DNA from: Gelatoporia subvermispora B
Taxonomy: Eukaryota > Basidiomycota > Agaricomycetes > Polyporales > Gelatoporiaceae
Length of the DNA: 64,000 bases
Direction: 5' to 3'
Assembly: GCA_000320605.2 (NCBI GenBank)
Contig: KB445800.1
Span: 451,157-515,156, forward strand
Both the position numbers and the translations under genes were made by a program. The notes beneath the pieces were generated by a model. It had not been told where the DNA came from. It worked only from the letters and a program-made list of their open reading frames with translations, and did no database searches. Below are positions 21,543 to 31,164 of this stretch, in pieces (the first letter of the stretch is position 1; each line of letters opens with the position of its first letter).

Positions 21543-23007
21543 ATGACATCCATTCGCTCTCTTGGGGCACAGAATATCCCGCAGCGTAGCCCAGAACCAA
21601 TCTCCACCAATTCCCGGGTCCCACCCGAACTCTGCGACAACATCATCGATCTACTGTGTGAGGATCGTAGATCCCTGTATGCATGTAGTCTGACGTGTCG
21701 TACATGGCTCCCGAGGACGCGGTACTGGTTGTACAAGAATGTCCGTATCAATCCGAAAAACAAGACGAAATTCCAAGATGTGTTGTCCAGCAATACTCAT
21801 CTGGGAGATTTCGTCGAGCACATGTCCATCAGCATCTGGCTGCCACATCATCCCTTTGAATGGGACAAGTTCCTTCAGTCCGTCACTGCTTGTATGCGAC
21901 ATTTGACGACGCTTAGAATCCATTCGGGATACTTCAAGGACCCGAAGTCCTTCCAATATCTGACGGCAATTCGTACTTTGCGCCTCGAGGACACGTATAT
22001 CGACTCGGAGACCACAAGACTGGCGTGGCTGCGGAGCATTCCCCAGATTGAAGAGCTTGCGTTCTCAGGGATTCGAGTGACCGGCCACTTTCCCATTGCA
22101 GCGTCCGACTATCCTCCTCTTCGGAAGTTGAATTCTATCAAGATCGATGGTGCTTTTTCTAGCGCATCGGCCTTCCTGCGTTATGTCTCAGTAAATGTCA
22201 CGGAACACATCAAACATCTGGAACTTGGGGTTGTCTCCCCAAAAGTCGACCTGCCTGGCTGGTTCACAGGTATTGCCCCGGTGCTAGAGCATCTGGCGTT
22301 CACGAGTAGTTCATATTATGATCATCGTATGTCCATCGGATGGCGTGGTTTCTGCATGTATATCTGTACTGACGATTATGTTAGCTAGCGACCTTGTTCT
22401 GAACTGTTGCACCCGTCTCCGCTCCTTGGCATACACTATATATTGTCATGACAACGAGAAGGACACCGCTTGCTTGCTTTGGGCGCTCCAGCAGATCACA
22501 TCGCCTTCAATGACAGTACTTCGCTTCAATCTCTTCGCTGACGACTGGCATGTCTACGACCGGAGATTGAGCATATCAGACTTCCCTGCACTCTCCACAT
22601 TGTTATCATCTCCGAAGTTTGCATCACTCGAACGCCTATCATTTCACCTCTCTATTAATTTTGCCAGACGAAACCGATGTGAACCACCATTGTTTTCGGA
22701 TCTCAGGACTTTGCTCGCAGATTTGAATATGCGGGGCATTTTGGCGCTTTCCACAGAAGTGAGGGATGAGCCGGGGAGGTGCGGAAACAGTCCCGAAAGA
22801 GCGCTCGAAATAGACGAGGAGGTAGAGCCACTGACATCAACGGAAACATGGAGGCTACCCACCCCGCCAAGACTTCCACCTCCCACGAGATCTCGGTCTT
22901 CCCCTCCCACAATAGTACCGGAGCTACCGATAACAGTGATACGGTTACCCAGGTCTCCGAGTTCAAGGAGCTCTCGATCTTCCTCTCCAACAATAGCACT
23001 TGAATAA
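21543..23007 (+). CDS. F-box protein, family copy 2
   Basis: Exons 21543-22326 and 22385-23007 with a 58-nt intron. F-box at residues 26-67 (VPPELCDNIIDLLCEDRRSL, CSLTCRTWLPRTRYWLYKNV), then the leucine-rich region shared with copies 1 and 3. Because the intron is not a multiple of three here, retention would frameshift the protein, unlike copy 1. The C terminus has an extra proline/serine/arginine-rich tail of about 55 residues (TPPRLPPPTRSRSSPPT, SPSSRSSRSSSPT) absent from copy 1. No lesion seen. Likely an SCF substrate receptor; target unknown. Confidence 0.8.
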
Positions 23008-23546
23008 GTCATTTTATTTATTTATGTAGATCAAGTTGTACTTGTTAGTTCTACATCTGAAGCTGATCTCAAGTCAATAGGTGAGTGCACTTGAGATCGT
23101 GTCGGGTGCGCGAGATTCTCATGGGTGAGTCTTCAGCTTTAGTGCTTGTGGTGTACAGTGGAAGTGGCAGTATTTCCCTATAGAAATCTGTTTCGGTGCC
23201 AGTGAAGGGTGTTCAAGACCCAGTGGTCTGGTGCAGGACATTGTGAAGATTGCGGGGGTGGTTTTGGGGTTCATGCAGTGATTCGTCTGTCCGACGAGAC
23301 GGTTTCTTCCTGATAATGCGCCGGTCATTATTTCCACTAGGCAAAAAGTTTCCAGCCGTCTTTCATCTGTCAGTTATATGGTTTTGGCAGTATCCTAGCA
23401 ATCCCGTTCGTTACGCATTTACCCAAGTTCACTGGAAGAGCCTCACGGTACTCTCGGCCAGGCCGCCATGCCGCCAGATTGTACCTAGATACCTGAACTC
23501 CGCCGGACTCCGCCATGGTGACACTCGCCCATTATTATGAGATCGG
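23008..23546. other. intergenic left flank of the transposon
   Basis: No gene recognised. If the element at 23556-29786 is a simple insertion, this stretch was originally the upstream region of F-box copy 3. Confidence 0.4.
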
Positions 23547-23555
23547 CTGTACGAG
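23547..23555. repeat. target-site duplication, left copy
   Basis: CTGTACGAG, identical to 29787-29795 and directly abutting the inverted terminal repeats on both sides. Confidence 0.85.
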
Positions 23556-23713
23556 CAGGCTCCTAAACCAGCCGTCGTTATAGAGTCACCCTCCACATAT
23601 CCCAGGGCGTGGTCACGTGTTGATTATGTGAGCGAGGTTCCAAATATGTAGGACCACATACCTGATTAGGACGAGCAGCAAAAGGAGGACGACTCTATAA
23701 GACGGCTGGCCAA
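23556..23713 (+). repeat. left inverted terminal repeat
   Basis: Matches the reverse complement of 29627-29786. The best-conserved blocks are the outer 50 or so bases (CAGGCTCCTAAACCAGCC, then TATAG and TCACCCTCCACA, CCCAGG) and the inner end (GGAGGACGA, then ACGGCTGGCCAA). Confidence 0.8.
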
Positions 23714-24030
23714 CTACATTCTCTGATTTCTCCCGAGGGCATATCGGAACGCAGTTGGCCACCGGCTATGAACTCTGAAACTTGAAGTCAGGTTTTAATT
23801 CTAGCTATGCCGACCATTATTATTCCGAGCTCTACATGGCACAGAGTCACATCTTCACTACACGTGATAGATATCATTCGAGTGGCTTCTTCGAAGTCTA
23901 ACTTTCAGCTTCCATGCACACATTATTTTAGTAGAATGTCCTGTGACCTCCAATACCATCGATTGCATGCAATATGCACGTGTGAGATAGTCTAGATACC
24001 CGCCTAACTTGCACGCTATCTTATACGACC

Positions 24031-26919
24031 ATGTCTGCTACAAAACCTGTTCAGCACATCCTTGAGATTCTCGATGCTGCAGGGCTCACTATCGGATCAT
24101 TTCTGAATGCACTGTTGATCGATACCACGTACAAGGACCATCCTCTGATTGTCGATCTCCAAGATGATGGTGGTATCTTGATTGAATGGCTGATACAAAG
24201 GGCAAAGACGACGGCAGTAATGAAGTCCTGGGCCCTTCAGATCGTCAAGCAATACTGCATGGAGGAGTTAACAGGACTCTCGGGGAAGAAGATGGGCATG
24301 CACTTTAACGTGAAGAGAGCAAATGAAGAGCAGGTTCAATCATTCGATATTGAAGCACTTGCCGGAACAATGCAGAACCATGCACCTATGGCATGGGAGC
24401 TGATTGGCGGGCTGCTTGAGGCAGATCCAGCGATTGCGAAACGAAGGCGTCAAAAGAGAGGCAAATCAAAGCGACGCCCAATTCGCCAAGTAGATCCGAT
24501 AGCAACGACAGGCGACACGGACGTCGAGGTGCCATTAGTGCTAGAGGAGGATAATAACAATAAGTATTGGAGAGACTTTGACGAGCCTCCTGATACGCAC
24601 AATAATGAAGAATACTTGCTTGATATGGATGTTTTACCAGGAGATGGAGTGCTCGGGCCTGACACGTTGGAAAACATGGAAGAAGGGCCGCCCGATGACG
24701 ATGATGAGCTTGATCATGAGGAAGATGGTAATGAGGAGGACGCAAATGATGTGGAGAGGGACCCGGGTCATCCAGACGATGCACCAGATAATGCGGAGAA
24801 TGCAGAGGATAGTGAAAGCCAACGGCAGGCAGTTCTCGCGCTGGTATGTTGTCTGGTATGCGTCGAAGGATGACCTAATTGCTTGATTAGAAATCAGTCG
24901 TGGCGATAGCATTGATGCTACATAGTACAAACCAGCGGTGCAACACCTTGCAAGCGATGGTCGGCGTTTTCCTACATGCGTGCAATGCGCCAGAGGCCAT
25001 CATTGACTTCCTGTCGCGCATTGGTCTATCAATCTCTCGCTCTGCAATCAATACTGCCGTGACAAGCCTATCAGCAGAAGCAATTCAGGAGATCCGAAAG
25101 CTTGGACGCACCCTTTTATCCCAGTCAGCTTATGATAATTTTGACGTTGAGTTGAGGCGTCTCGTTCCAACTGTCGAAAGGCCGCACGACACACTGCTGC
25201 ACTTGACATCCGGCCTGTTGATCCCGTTAGAACACGGCGTTACCTCCGAGGATTTACGATGCTCAGATGAGCTCTGGGCTACATCACCCTATAATCCATC
25301 GAACTTCCACCTCAACAGTCAGCCGAACTGGGCCCAGGTTGCCTTCCACATTCAGAAGGAGGAAGAGCACCCATCGCAGCTTACCCTGAGTCAACGTTAC
25401 CAGCGGTGGAAATTTATGGCAGATTTAGTAGAGTACGGCCCGGAATACTTTTGGAAGTTCAAGGACGGCCTGGGCGAGCCTGAACCTGTCGAGCAGATTT
25501 CACTGGTGAAGTCGCAGCAGATCCCTGTAAAAGCAATGGATATCAACGAGTCTACAACAGCGGGAAACATAGATGCTCTTACCAATCTCTTTCGGCAGAT
25601 GGGCGTTGGCAGTACAGCCGAAGAATCTTCACCGGGATGTCAAGACATCGGAGACCATGTCACATTGGTTCACGGTGACTTGTCAACAGCGGAACGTGTT
25701 GAGAGTTTGCGGCAGTCCCGAAGCGATGAGACGACATCTTGGCGCCGCTTTCAAAGCGTAGTCTTCGTCATGGGACTATTTCACTTGAAGATGGCCTGTG
25801 CGGACGCTATCTGGAAGCTATATATCCAGCCGAAGGCCGCGCGACTGGACGAGACCTGTATGATGGAGCATGTGGCGGAGATCAGACCAAAAGAAACCAT
25901 AAAAATGGGAAGTAAACCAGGGTTTCGTCGGATGCACGAGGTCATCCAGCACGTGGGCGTTGTCTCTCGCTTGGATTGCTGGCGGTTAGAGGTAGAGCGA
26001 GTGCATAAGTGCTCAAGTCTTGAAGAATGGGCGAAGTTGAGCCCCACCTGGGAAGACGTTCAGCAAATTGCAAAGGCCCTTACTCTCAACTACGTGGCCG
26101 GAAATAATCTGTCAAATATTCGGTCTCAGCCGCAGCAAGAGCGAGATAAGCAAAATGAGAACTCGTTATTACTTCAGCGTGACTGTCTCCTGTACGAGGA
26201 AATCACGCACGCGATGAACGCGGGAGACATCGGGTGGACGGAAAAGTGCTTCATACCGTGGGGCTTAATCTTCAAAGGATGCGGAAAACACAAATATGCG
26301 AAGCATATGCTGCACCTACTGCATAACCTGCATTTTGTGTATCCTCCGCGACTTAGGTGAGTTCTTTCCGAGAGGCCTCACTGCTTGATTCACCTGTTTG
26401 TCTTGCAGCCGAGCCATTCGCATGAACATTCTGTGTAATCCCACCGGCAAGAAGAATGGGTTCCGTGGCATAGATTGGTGGCTGGAACATAATAACTTCT
26501 ATACAAAGGTACAGTAAACAATTACACAGCACGTAATAAAGCGACTCATCGAAATACAGAAGATTTATGCTGGCCAGTTCTCTGTTCGCACAAAGCATAG
26601 GATCATCAAGTACTCGCCACTCATTGGCTCCTTCAAGCGTATCCGGGTAAACTTTGAAAACATGTTTGCTTTACATCAACGCGGCTACAAGCACTCTTCT
26701 GCTAAATTGAAGAAAACATTTAGTCAGCTTGCACGGAAAATGAAGAAGAAGAGGGCTCACGAACACATCAAGGGGCGGGGCACCGCGTATCAGGTTCCAG
26801 ATGCTATGAAGCTCGGCCTGCACAAGTACATCCATTCGGATTCGACGCCCGATGAGGAGAACCCAGAGGAGATAGTTGATGAGAATATCGATGCAGAGGA
26901 CGGAGACTTGGATGTGTAG
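24031..26919 (+). CDS. DUF6589 protein, candidate transposase
   Basis: Four exons: 24031-24843, 24891-26356, 26409-26508 and 26560-26919, giving 912 aa. The N-terminal 270 residues end in a long acidic stretch (EEGPPDDDDELDHEEDGNEE). The central and C-terminal parts match the Agaricomycete DUF6589 family: YDNFDVELRRLVPTVE, LLHLTSGLLIPL, VHGDLSTAERVESLRQSR near residue 533, VFVMGLFHLKMACADAIWK near 565, and GIDWWLEHNNFYTK. The spaced Asp/His landmarks (DNFD, GDL, FH, ACADA) are reminiscent of an RNase H-fold transposase core; that is inference. A basic segment (ARKMKKKRAHEHIKGRG) precedes an acidic C terminus. It lies inside the inverted repeats of the element and converges on the helicase gene. 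No lesion seen. Confidence 0.85.
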
Positions 26920-29463
26920 ACGTACGATTTGAACCCCCTGCAACCAGGGGTGCCATCTGCTGGGGTGTATACGGGCCGCGCCAGACAATTTCTGGAGGAC
27001 GGCGTATTGGCTGTTGAGCTATGTTGAGATCCGCGCCAAGGACCATGTGAACACCTGTTGGCTGCGGGACCTGTACAGTGATGGCGGGGCATCTGCTGAA
27101 GCGACCTGTTATACAGTCAAACTATGTGTACACAGACCAGGGCGATTACTCACTTGTGTATCCCACTTGTCCGCATCTGCCACAGGTTGGTGCCTTCCGT
27201 TTCTTCGCACCTTCCATCCGCTGTGTGCCCATGTCAAGGCCGCGTGGCGCTTGAGCGTTAGGAGTTGCCAATGCTGCAGCGGCCGGTGGAGGCAGAGGTG
27301 GAGGCGGAGGCGGATGCAGGAAGACAGAGTGCACTATTGTAAGTAAAGAGTCACCAAAATCATCCATCCATCTGGTGTTCCAGAAGACCTCTTTCTTCAG
27401 CTGTTCGCGTGTCTCCAGCTTGCCTACCCGAGCACAGCCAATGATGCGCTCAAGGGAGGGCTCTGAAAGAACAAGCTCGCCTCTGTAGTTTGCACTCATT
27501 GACCAACCAAACCTCAGCTTGGCCTGCTCGTCGTGCCAATCCATCAAGAGCTTGTGTAAGTGTGCTTCAGCTTCACCAGCATCGTACGGCCTGATCGGCG
27601 ACTTCTTCGTCATCTTTGTGGGGGGTTCAATGTCGGTATCAGTGAACTGGGCGAGGATCTCAGGGTTGCAAAGGTCACAGCAGATAGAAGACGTCTTGGG
27701 ACCGCAGCGCTGACAACCCTCAGTGCTCGGGTTGCATTGATGATAGTCGAACTCTGGTAAGATTGGCGTGAGAATTTTGATTACATTAGACGTGGTTCTT
27801 AATCACTCACCTCGCTGATCATTGCCGTAGACAAGTGTAATAGGTGTCCGACGGCATTTAAATCCGCGCAGGTCAGCGTTGGCAAAATCTAATATAGCAG
27901 GCTGTATCGTCTTGAGCTCTTTACCAACCGCGCCAAGTCCGCGATTTGATCGCTGAGAGTACAGCGACCACCGCTCCTCGAGATCAATTGTGGCATTTGC
28001 CTCAGGCACAACGACCACAACATCATCTTCGCTGCTAGAGTCATCAGCATTAGCAACCAGCACCGGGGGATCAGGGGCAGGAGCAGTCAATGTCTGGGGA
28101 TCGCCTGTACGCTTCCGCTTTGCCGGTCTGCTATTTGCAGCCGCTGACGTCTTCTTTCGTTTCTTGGTTGCTGCCCGCTGTAGTTTACGAATTTGTCGGC
28201 CCTTCATCTCGTCGTCACAGTAGGTTTTCTCGTAGATGAAAATTGCAAAGCCTTCGACGTCAAAGCCTCTTGCTGTGCGACCAAAGCGCTGCCAAAGGGT
28301 GTTGATATTTTTGGGTAACTTCCACTGAACGACAATCTTGATGTCCGATACGTCGAGTCCCTGTAATTGTTTTGTTACTAGCGTTACACGTCGAGAAATC
28401 GAAACTCACCATTCCGAATGAATCGGTGACGCACATACCAAAAATGTCACCGTTCTTGATTGCCTCGAGCTGGTCGTCTCTGTATTTGTCGGACATGAGC
28501 GAATGAAAATACTTGACTTTGTGCTGAAGATGCTCGGGCAGCCGGCTCCGGAGGTGTCTGGTAGTGGCTTCCGCTTCTTTGATACTGTTGAAAAAGATCA
28601 AGAACTTTGGCGGGGGCAGGTCACCGTCAGTGAAGTTCTTTGGAATGAGAAAGTTCAGGTCTTTGAATGAACTGGCGGAGTAGCGCATCTTTCGAGCGCA
28701 AAGAGCGATATCTGGGCGATTGTTTGACCGGAAGATATGGTCTGTGTGCCGGGGCCGGAGGTGAAGAACTTCAGTGACGTCGTCGAGAATAGGAGTAGGA
28801 AGAGTGGCAGATGCGACGTAGAAGGGAATGACCTCGGGGATCAGAAAGCGAAGGCTCCCGAGATATTTGTATTGTTCTCGAAAGGAGCTCCATTCGCTCA
28901 TGCAATGGCCTTCGTCGAAGACAAAGTAGAGAAGCCTCGAAACAAACGAGGGCTTCTTCCAAAGCTTCTCGCAGTGTCCGCTGTCGGTCATCAAAATTTC
29001 TGGGTTGATAACGACGACCTGGAACATGCCAGCTTCAATGTTCTGTACATTTCAATAAGTAAGTCAAGCTGAAATGTGATGATTTACTGCTACTCACCTT
29101 GAAATTCTCATCTGTCACCGACTTTGCATCAATGGCGATCCCCCGAATTCCGGCAGCATTAAGTAGCTCCACATTTTGCTTTCCGAGGATATTCAGTGGC
29201 GTAACCACGAATATCATCTTGTCTTGATTGTCTTCGAGTGCCATAAGAAGCGGCATCCAGAATGAGAGTGTCTTCCCGGCACCGGTCGCAGCGATGGCAA
29301 CGACATCGTTTCGTTTTTCGTACAGTGACTGGGCGATTTTGATCTGAAAGAGACAGGGATGCTGGCCGAACTTTTGCTGGACAAGACTTCGGATGCGTTG
29401 AATAGACCAAGTGGACGGCGGCATTTCGAGAAGCAAGTATCCCGGGTATAGCGAAGACTTCAA
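26804..29463 (-). CDS. RecQ-like DEAD/DEAH helicase of the transposon
   Basis: Five exons: 29098-29463, 28410-29042, 27811-28360, 27154-27753 and 26804-27105, 816 aa in phase. Motifs in order: a Q-motif-like CLFQIKIAQ, Walker A ATGAGKT (residues 59-65), Walker B FDEGHCMSEW, motif III VASATL, the helicase C domain (FLIFFNSIKEAEATTRHL, MCVTDSFGMGLDVSDI), and motif VI QRFGRTARG. Then come a lysine-rich linker, a Cys cluster (CxxxxxxxCQRCG, CCDLC) like a RecQ zinc domain, a poly-Pro run, and a zinc knuckle CGRCGQVGYTSRFSRC. It should unwind DNA 3'-5'. The last exon as drawn overlaps the end of the DUF6589 gene by 116 bp antisense, so the true 3' end may be shorter. Met-14 is an alternative start. 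Confidence 0.85.
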
Positions 29464-29626
29464 CCACGAAAGGTCGACCTAGTGACAACAGTCACGGCAG
29501 ATGACGCCTGTAACACTAGCATTTGAGGCTCCGACGCGTGAATTCAAGCCCTATTCTAGGGTTTTTGCGCAAAAACGAGGAGGACGATCGCGAGACTCTT
29601 TCGGATCTCTCGGGCGCTTGACATTT

Positions 29627-29786
29627 TTGGCCAGCCGTCCTATAGCCTCGTCCTCCCTTCACACACGCATCTAATTAGGAAGCTCGCATATTTCTAAGAC
29701 TGTCACATGATCTTTGGCTGAGGTCATCAGATCATCCTGGGATTTGTGGAGGGTGAGGCTATAGCGAAGGCTGGTTTAGGAGCCTG
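29627..29786 (-). repeat. right inverted terminal repeat
   Basis: Inverted copy of 23556-23713; ends GGCTGGTTTAGGAGCCTG immediately before the 9-bp duplication. Confidence 0.8.
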
Positions 29787-29795
29787 CTGTACGAG
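29787..29795. repeat. target-site duplication, right copy
   Basis: CTGTACGAG, identical to 23547-23555. It ends 29 bp before the start codon of F-box copy 3. Confidence 0.85.
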
Positions 29796-29824: not shown

Positions 29825-31164
29825 ATGTATCCAACTAACTCGTTTGGACCACAGGATACCTCGTGTGCTCCACTTCAGAACAGCGATCAGCAGCTTAGCT
29901 CGGGATCAGTCTCCACAGCTTGCCATTTACCACGTGAACTCTGCGACGAAATCATCGATCTACTTCGCGATGACCGCAAAGTCCTCTATGCATGTAGTCT
30001 AGCATGTCGCGCATGGCTTCCGAGGACGCGCCACTGGCTGTATAAGAGCGTTTCTGTTGGCCCAGAGAATAAGACGAAGCTCCAAGATGTTCTCACTAAC
30101 AACCCCGGGCTGGGGCATCTCATCGATCACTTGTCCATCGTTGCCATGTTTCCGCACCATCCCTTAGAGTGGGACAAATTCCTTCAATCTGTTACTGCGC
30201 ACACGCCTCGCCTCACTGAGCTCGACATTCATAAAGGCCACTTCAAAGATCCGACGTCCCTCCAATACCTCGCTACCATTCGCACTTTACGACTCTACAA
30301 TGCATATTTCGATTCGGAATTGACCAGACTAGCGTGGCTGCGGAGCATTCCCCAGGTCGAAAAGCTCGCACTTTATGACGTTCAACTGACCGGAGTACCT
30401 CCATCTACCCTCGAGTGGCCCCAGGATCTCCTCCTACCTGCGCAGTATCGAATTCAATACGTTACATTCGGGTGGATCTAACTTCGTGAATTTCGTGCTT
30501 CCCAAAGGGAGGAAACACATCACACATGTGGATCTCGGCAGGGTTAGTCTCTTGGTCGGTATGGAGGACTGGTTCACGGATATCGCTGCAACGCTGGAAC
30601 ATCTAGCGTTCAGTAGTATGCAGACGTGGTGGATGTCAGGCACCTGTACGTCCGTTGTATTGCGTACTTCCTGTATGTACGTCCGTACTGACTGTCGCGA
30701 TAGTCAGCGATCTTGTGCTTGCCCCTTGCACCAACCTTCGCTCTGTGCAATTTTCCTTGACATATGGGATCAACTGTGACGACACCGGTCGCTTGCACTG
30801 GGTACTCCGGACGATCACCTCGTCGTCTATAGTAACACTTCGTTTCAACCTATTCGCCCTCCTACCAGATGTTTACGACCGCAAATTGACCATATCGGAT
30901 GGCTCTGCTTTCTCAGCGTTGCTCCTATCGCCGAAGTTTGCGTCATTACAGCATCTTTCATTTCACTTATGCGTCATCACCGCACGGGTCGACCTTCCCG
31001 AGCCGCCGCTGTTTGCGGACCTCAAGGCTCTGCTCCCGGATTTATATGCGCAGGGAGTCTTAGAACTCTCCGTGGAATCCAAGAAGCTACCGCGCAGAAG
31101 CTGGGACAGTCCCGAAGTTGTGCTTGAAATACATGACGACCATAGTGTACAGACAGAGGGATAA
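29825..31164 (+). pseudogene. F-box protein, family copy 3 (probable frameshift)
   Basis: F-box at residues 35-76 (LPRELCDEIIDLLRDDRKVL, CSLACRAWLPRTRHWLYKSV). The frame runs to about 30420, then continues in another frame (LRSIEFNTLHSGGSNFVNFV) to the intron at 30646-30703 and on to 31164. Aligned with copy 2, 57 nt are expected between the Gly of VTG/LTG and the SI pair, and 58 are present. The extra base lies in or near a run of four C at 30419-30422. It could be a real lesion or a miscalled homopolymer. The transposon insertion ends only 29 bp upstream of the ATG, so the original promoter is now about 6.2 kb away; the gene may be silent or driven from the element. Confidence 0.7.

Follow-up and report, generated by a model that had tools for sequence, protein, structure and literature searches.

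What kind of mobile unit carries a protein of the DUF6589 family together with a RecQ-like helicase, and which of the two proteins moves it? The question is raised by 64,000 nucleotides of contig KB445800.1 of the wood-decaying polypore Gelatoporia subvermispora B (contig C10 here; the whole stretch is hereafter called the window), in which a two-gene transposon of 6,231 bp spans positions 23556-29786. The window element is a real and complete mobile element. Judged by its fit to the published description, we consider it likely to be an AcademH-type DNA transposon that is autonomous and in which DUF6589 would be the DDE-class (here DDD) transposase and the RecQ-like helicase an accessory protein.

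Borders and genomic copies of the element

The left terminus starts at 23556 with CAGGCTCCTAAACCAGCC, the reverse complement of which closes the right terminus at 29786. The 9-bp sequences CTGTACGAG abutting both ends (23547-23555 and 29787-29795) match at 9 of 9 positions, in agreement with the perfect duplication claimed in the original prediction. That prediction had also described inverted ends of about 160 bp; the termini are indeed inverted, but a single uniform 160-bp repeat was not found. Instead, they share a matching outer arm of 53 nt (91%, two flanking bases included) and a matching inner arm of 33 nt (88%), and diverged sequence separates the outer and inner arms. The presence of inverted ends and duplications does not agree with the hallmark of Helitrons, which have neither.

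23547..23555, no strand: left copy of the target-site duplication CTGTACGAG, by sequence identity to 29787-29795
23556..23715, plus strand: left end, outer inverted repeat and inner inverted copy; same build in other copies
29627..29786, minus strand: right end of the element
29787..29795, no strand: right copy of the target-site duplication CTGTACGAG

The 37.7-Mb genome (52 contigs) was searched with a 22-base end pattern, allowing up to 3 mismatches, and the reversed pattern served as the control. The end pattern matched 42 times and the control once; 30 of the 42 matches formed 15 inward-facing pairs and 12 were unpaired. Six full-length elements of 6.2-6.4 kb have both ends (the window element, C23:548690-554994, C25:347803-354203, C13:228152-234521, C6:593738-600133 and C1:3569876-3576241), as do ten short elements of 305-564 bp. 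The 15 pairs exclude the full-length C1 element, the ends of which were picked via its duplication. Perfect 9-bp duplications were present at 12 of the 15 pairs, an 8-bp duplication at one (C23) and none at two (C12 and C15), and the duplicated 9-bp sequences varied between insertion sites. Further copies with the same genes, termini and 9-bp duplications, as the original prediction had suggested looking for, are thus found in the host genome. The duplication of the divergent C1 copy is not independent, because this copy was found by requiring it; in the corresponding control, 72 pairs of mismatched stretches produced 5 hits. When inspected by eye, the left terminus of the C1 copy resembled the family motif and the right terminus did so less. 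As the short copies are too short to hold genes, we propose that they presumably moved in trans. The two short elements lacking duplications (C12:265796-266100 and C15:226323-226868) have matching ends and are possibly rearranged or recombinant.

The DUF6589 protein as a candidate transposase

The element encloses two convergent genes, DUF6589 on the plus strand and the RecQ-like helicase on the minus strand, and DUF6589 is the only gene seen besides the helicase.

24031..24843, plus strand: DUF6589 gene, exon 1
24891..26356, plus strand: DUF6589 gene, exon 2, with the proposed triad D353 (25134-25136), D534 (25677-25679) and D717 (26226-26228)
26409..26508, plus strand: DUF6589 gene, exon 3
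26560..26919, plus strand: DUF6589 gene, exon 4 with the stop codon

The four exons form a spliced frame of 912 aa with 0 internal stops, which reproduces the predicted intact gene. Pfam family PF20231 (DUF6589) covers aa 428-838 of this 912-aa protein (E 4.9e-111); besides it, the Pfam scan at E ≤ 1 returned only one sub-threshold viral family, and no MULE, hAT or Kolobok domain. The Pfam description of PF20231 gives no function, and the role of a transposase is proposed here. When the DUF6589 alignment was searched against the sequences of the PDB, only chance-level matches came up (best GabR, E 0.76). At the same time, the predicted fold of the protein is transposase-like, an RNase H core with a helical insertion, for which the hAT enzyme Hermes is the best-ranked solved structure. 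The acidic triad D353/D534/D717 is conserved in the aligned columns, C7-type proteins included. Hence, the RNase H fold and aligned acidic residues that had been named as a check on the prediction were recovered at the level of a predicted fold and conserved residues, and we infer from them that D353, D534 and D717 are the catalytic residues. Taken together with the mobility of the element, these features uphold the earlier proposal, and DUF6589 is most likely a DDE-class transposase candidate.

A regular expression with fixed motif spacing picked out 87 of 120 window-type and 2 of 120 C7-type proteins; since the aligned columns show the triad in the C7-type proteins, these counts were set aside and not used. 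In the window protein, E722, D356 and D488 (E451, D85 and D217 of protein P0002) were also considered as catalytic residues and dropped, because they are changed in divergent relatives. One DUF6589 protein, P0356 of Ganoderma boninense, is apparently misnamed as "Transcriptional regulator containing an aminotransferase domain"; the match of the DUF6589 family to GabR is at chance level only. No mention of DUF6589 was found in the open-licence literature searched, where the only match to "PF20231" was a physics paper.

Comparison of the copies shows DUF6589 to be under purifying selection. The ratio of nonsynonymous to synonymous substitutions (dN/dS) between the C13 and C25 copies was 0.093 for DUF6589 (763 codons) and 0.103 for the helicase (203 codons), and the values for C6 and C13 were 0.101 and 0.138, respectively. 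The recent pair C6-C25 showed weaker constraint (0.214 for DUF6589 and 0.310 for the helicase). In comparisons of the window copy with the others, the synonymous sites were saturated (0.77-0.83 differences per site), which makes dN/dS against this copy unusable and indicates that the window element is an old, separate line. The outer 18 bases of its left end are identical in the C23 element and in the short elements on C17 and C28.

The RecQ-like helicase and its pairing with DUF6589

29098..29424, minus strand: helicase exon 1; Pfam DEAD and Helicase_C, PDB matches to WRN, RecQ and BLM
28410..29042, minus strand: helicase exon 2
27811..28360, minus strand: helicase exon 3
27146..27753, minus strand: last helicase exon to the first in-frame stop (an additional intron and exon are possible), C-terminus uncertain

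Exons 29424-29098, 29042-28410, 28360-27811 and 27753 onward encode 705 aa before the first in-frame stop is reached, and alternative last introns extend the protein to up to 803 aa. A spliced RecQ-like helicase is therefore present as predicted, but the predicted 816 aa were not reproduced; this and the varying choice of the last intron leave the C-terminus uncertain. The protein matches PF00270 (DEAD, E 1.6e-23) and PF00271 (Helicase_C, E 2.4e-17), and its closest solved structure in the PDB is WRN, followed by RecQ and BLM.

The 22 DUF6589 exon matches in the genome correspond to 13 loci. Of these, 10 have a helicase match no more than 2.5 kb away, in convergent order at eight loci and in divergent order at two; for two others the distance is 6.9 kb and 10.2 kb, and the locus at C1:1.02M has none nearby. 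Identity to the window helicase drops to 26-34% in the best helicase stretches beside the more distant DUF6589 copies. In other species, 29 of the 120 listed DUF6589 proteins come from a contig equal in length to that of one of the 120 listed helicase relatives. The shared contigs among these matches number 28, the species being the same each time; consecutive gene numbers occur in four pairs, and in another three the numbers are two apart. Only consecutive numbers were counted as adjacency, and a shared contig alone was not. The helicase partner is thus kept both in the own genome and in other species, which bears out the idea that the helicase travels with DUF6589. A second DUF6589 group, with the helicase gene in divergent orientation, was noticed at C11:739635-743834, C6:632870-637560 and C1:2896467-2905879; no element ends were found within the stretches read for the C6 member.

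Possible hairpin-shaped ends

23568..23594, plus strand: outer arm of the left-end hairpin (DNA fold z -3.4; covariation)
23684..23709, plus strand: inner arm of the left-end hairpin (DNA fold, covariation)
29631..29656, minus strand: inner arm of the right-end hairpin (DNA fold, covariation)
29748..29774, minus strand: outer arm of the right-end hairpin (DNA fold, covariation)

The ends of the main family consist of an outer arm, CCAGCCGTC(G)YTATAGAG..., and its inverted inner copy about 110 bp inward, the outer arm usually being one base longer. Folding of the window ends as single-stranded DNA gave z -3.4 for the left end (equalled by 0 of 200 shuffles) and z -2.0 for the right (4 of 200). 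In the five full-length elements showing arms, the outer arm was closer to its own inner arm than to that of the opposite end at 10 of 10 ends. Covariation was assessed in 29 of 32 ends (both ends of the full-length C1 element and one C12 end were left out), 21 of them distinct. Among these 21, 88.8% of cells pair (83.4 in shuffled versions), changes on both sides occur at 11 of 26 pairs (6.2 shuffled), and there are 35 compensatory cells, compared with 10.3 in shuffled and 3-11 in slid versions.

Two results weigh against hairpins. In nine short elements, 12 of 18 ends matched their own inner arm better, while 3 were tied and 3 matched that of the opposite end better; and further pair types were not above shuffles (24 vs 23.4, 244/500). 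The ends of the divergent C1 copy show no hairpin arms. The covariation signal is also tempered by the positioning of the inner arm by its best match to the outer arm, a choice that favours pairing, by the kinship of the copies and by possible arm-to-arm conversion. The arms may also have been homogenised by such conversion. We put forward only tentatively, as a rather doubtful extension, that recognition of the ends depends on DNA hairpins (26-pair stems with compensatory changes separately left and right) which the helicase exposes or resolves. The element would then be a DDE-class transposon whose structure-guided end recognition requires a helicase of its own, and DUF6589 would be the founding transposase family.

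Classification and mechanism

The AcademH lineage of the Academ superfamily reportedly goes back to Kojima (2020, Mobile DNA 11:15). The passages that describe it present AcademH as the helicase-encoding Academ lineage of animals and fungi (PMC10045372, PMC10799480), low-copy in Basidiomycota, Ascomycota and Mucoromycota (PMC10799480), with duplications of 9 or 10 bp as against 3 or 4 bp in AcademX, a difference tied to the helicase and nuclease (PMC10045372). Domains of the PF00270/PF00271 type are listed for the helicases of AcademH, KolobokH or Helitron in a passage of PMC10799480, and Academ stands among the DDD/E superfamilies in one of PMC9587614. The window element likewise encodes a helicase with PF00270 and PF00271, its family has 9-bp duplications at 12 of 15 end pairs, and its transposase appears to be of the DDD/E type according to the predicted fold and the conserved acidic triad. 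AcademH membership is thus very likely, as a fit by description rather than by sequence comparison. The "distinct superfamily" of the original prediction is not supported in that form, since the element matches the published AcademH description (helicase, 9- or 10-bp duplications). AcademH is a known, little-studied transposon type; DUF6589 as the transposase and covarying hairpin ends are absent from the AcademH passages of these papers, and it is the functional reading of DUF6589 and these ends that are new. Nothing decisive for the comparison with known systems came from the passages of PMC12730594, PMC8290104, PMC12210899, PMC9970103 and PMC9783078.

On the AcademH reading, the DUF6589 transposase would bind the hairpin-shaped ends and then cut them, by a chemistry presumed here, and the cut ends would be joined to host DNA with a 9-bp stagger, the repair of which would produce the 9-bp duplication. 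The co-travelling RecQ-like helicase probably opens or resolves the end DNA in excision or repair. Many Agaricomycete genomes hold DUF6589, whose name marks it as no more than a domain of unknown function; if it is a DDD transposase with a helicase, such predicted fungal "genes" would be reclassified as mobile elements. The reading offers three candidate residues for mutation and, for an assay, short substrates whose ends are defined. The covarying hairpin ends suggest why a DNA transposon of this kind might carry a helicase, an explanation that can be tested.

The same mobile element could be explained by DUF6589 being a lineage separate from Academ, a new superfamily with an independently acquired RecQ-like helicase, as in KolobokH. 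This would suit the facts that the Pfam scan gave a clear match to no family but DUF6589, that the literature searched does not mention it, and that the named relatives among the best 120 matches per search belong to genera which we take to be Agaricomycetes, while AcademH is reported from animals too. However, the absence of animals is weak because only the best 120 matches per search were listed, the combination of a 9-bp duplication and a helicase is the one stated for AcademH in a passage of PMC10045372, and AcademH is reported from Basidiomycota in one of PMC10799480; we therefore find a separate superfamily unlikely.

An element of the MULE, hAT or Kolobok type with a divergent transposase is already disfavoured and, in our estimate, highly improbable. 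Duplications of 9 bp are usual for MULEs, whereas those of hAT elements are 8 bp and those of Kolobok and KolobokH are TTAA; in the window family they are 9 bp in 12 of 15 pairs and 8 bp in one copy, and none of the corresponding Pfam domains was detected at E ≤ 1. Hermes is the best structural match to the predicted DUF6589 fold, but a shared fold shows no membership, and DUF6589 has its own conserved motifs and no sequence similarity to Hermes detected in the Pfam and PDB searches. According to passages of PMC9587614, the fungal DNA transposon KolobokH carries its RecQ helicase downstream of the transposase domain, and one rhodophyte Kolobok has the helicase on the complementary strand. The window element shares the RecQ-type helicase (PDB matches WRN, RecQ and BLM), but has it as a gene of its own, on the strand opposite to the transposase gene, and its 9-bp duplications vary in sequence.

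It is likewise highly improbable that DUF6589 is a passenger of a unit moved by another enzyme, with the helicase or some protein from elsewhere in the genome as the recombinase. This explanation draws on the transposase role being predicted rather than biochemical, but the element holds no other gene besides the helicase, and DUF6589 combines a transposase-like predicted fold and a conserved acidic triad, is under purifying selection and keeps its helicase partner within the genome and across species.

Surroundings of the insertion

Related genes, F-box-like by eye, lie on both sides of the element (window 21543-23007 and 29825-31164; DNA 69% identical over about 500 bp). An empty site was sought with the flanks in the own genome, which gave only partial repeats, short of the junction or inside related genes; when the joined flanks were compared with the region upstream of the neighbouring related gene, similarity was clear only in the coding part, from about 100 bp into the right flank onward. 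The right-hand reading frame starts 38 bp beyond the end of the insertion, and the expression of this gene may therefore be affected. A dispersed repeat (window 23463-23517) stops 38 bp left of the element and has partial copies on C3, C8, C9, C12 and C15, the one on C8 lying some 570 bp away from one of the short derivatives of the transposon.
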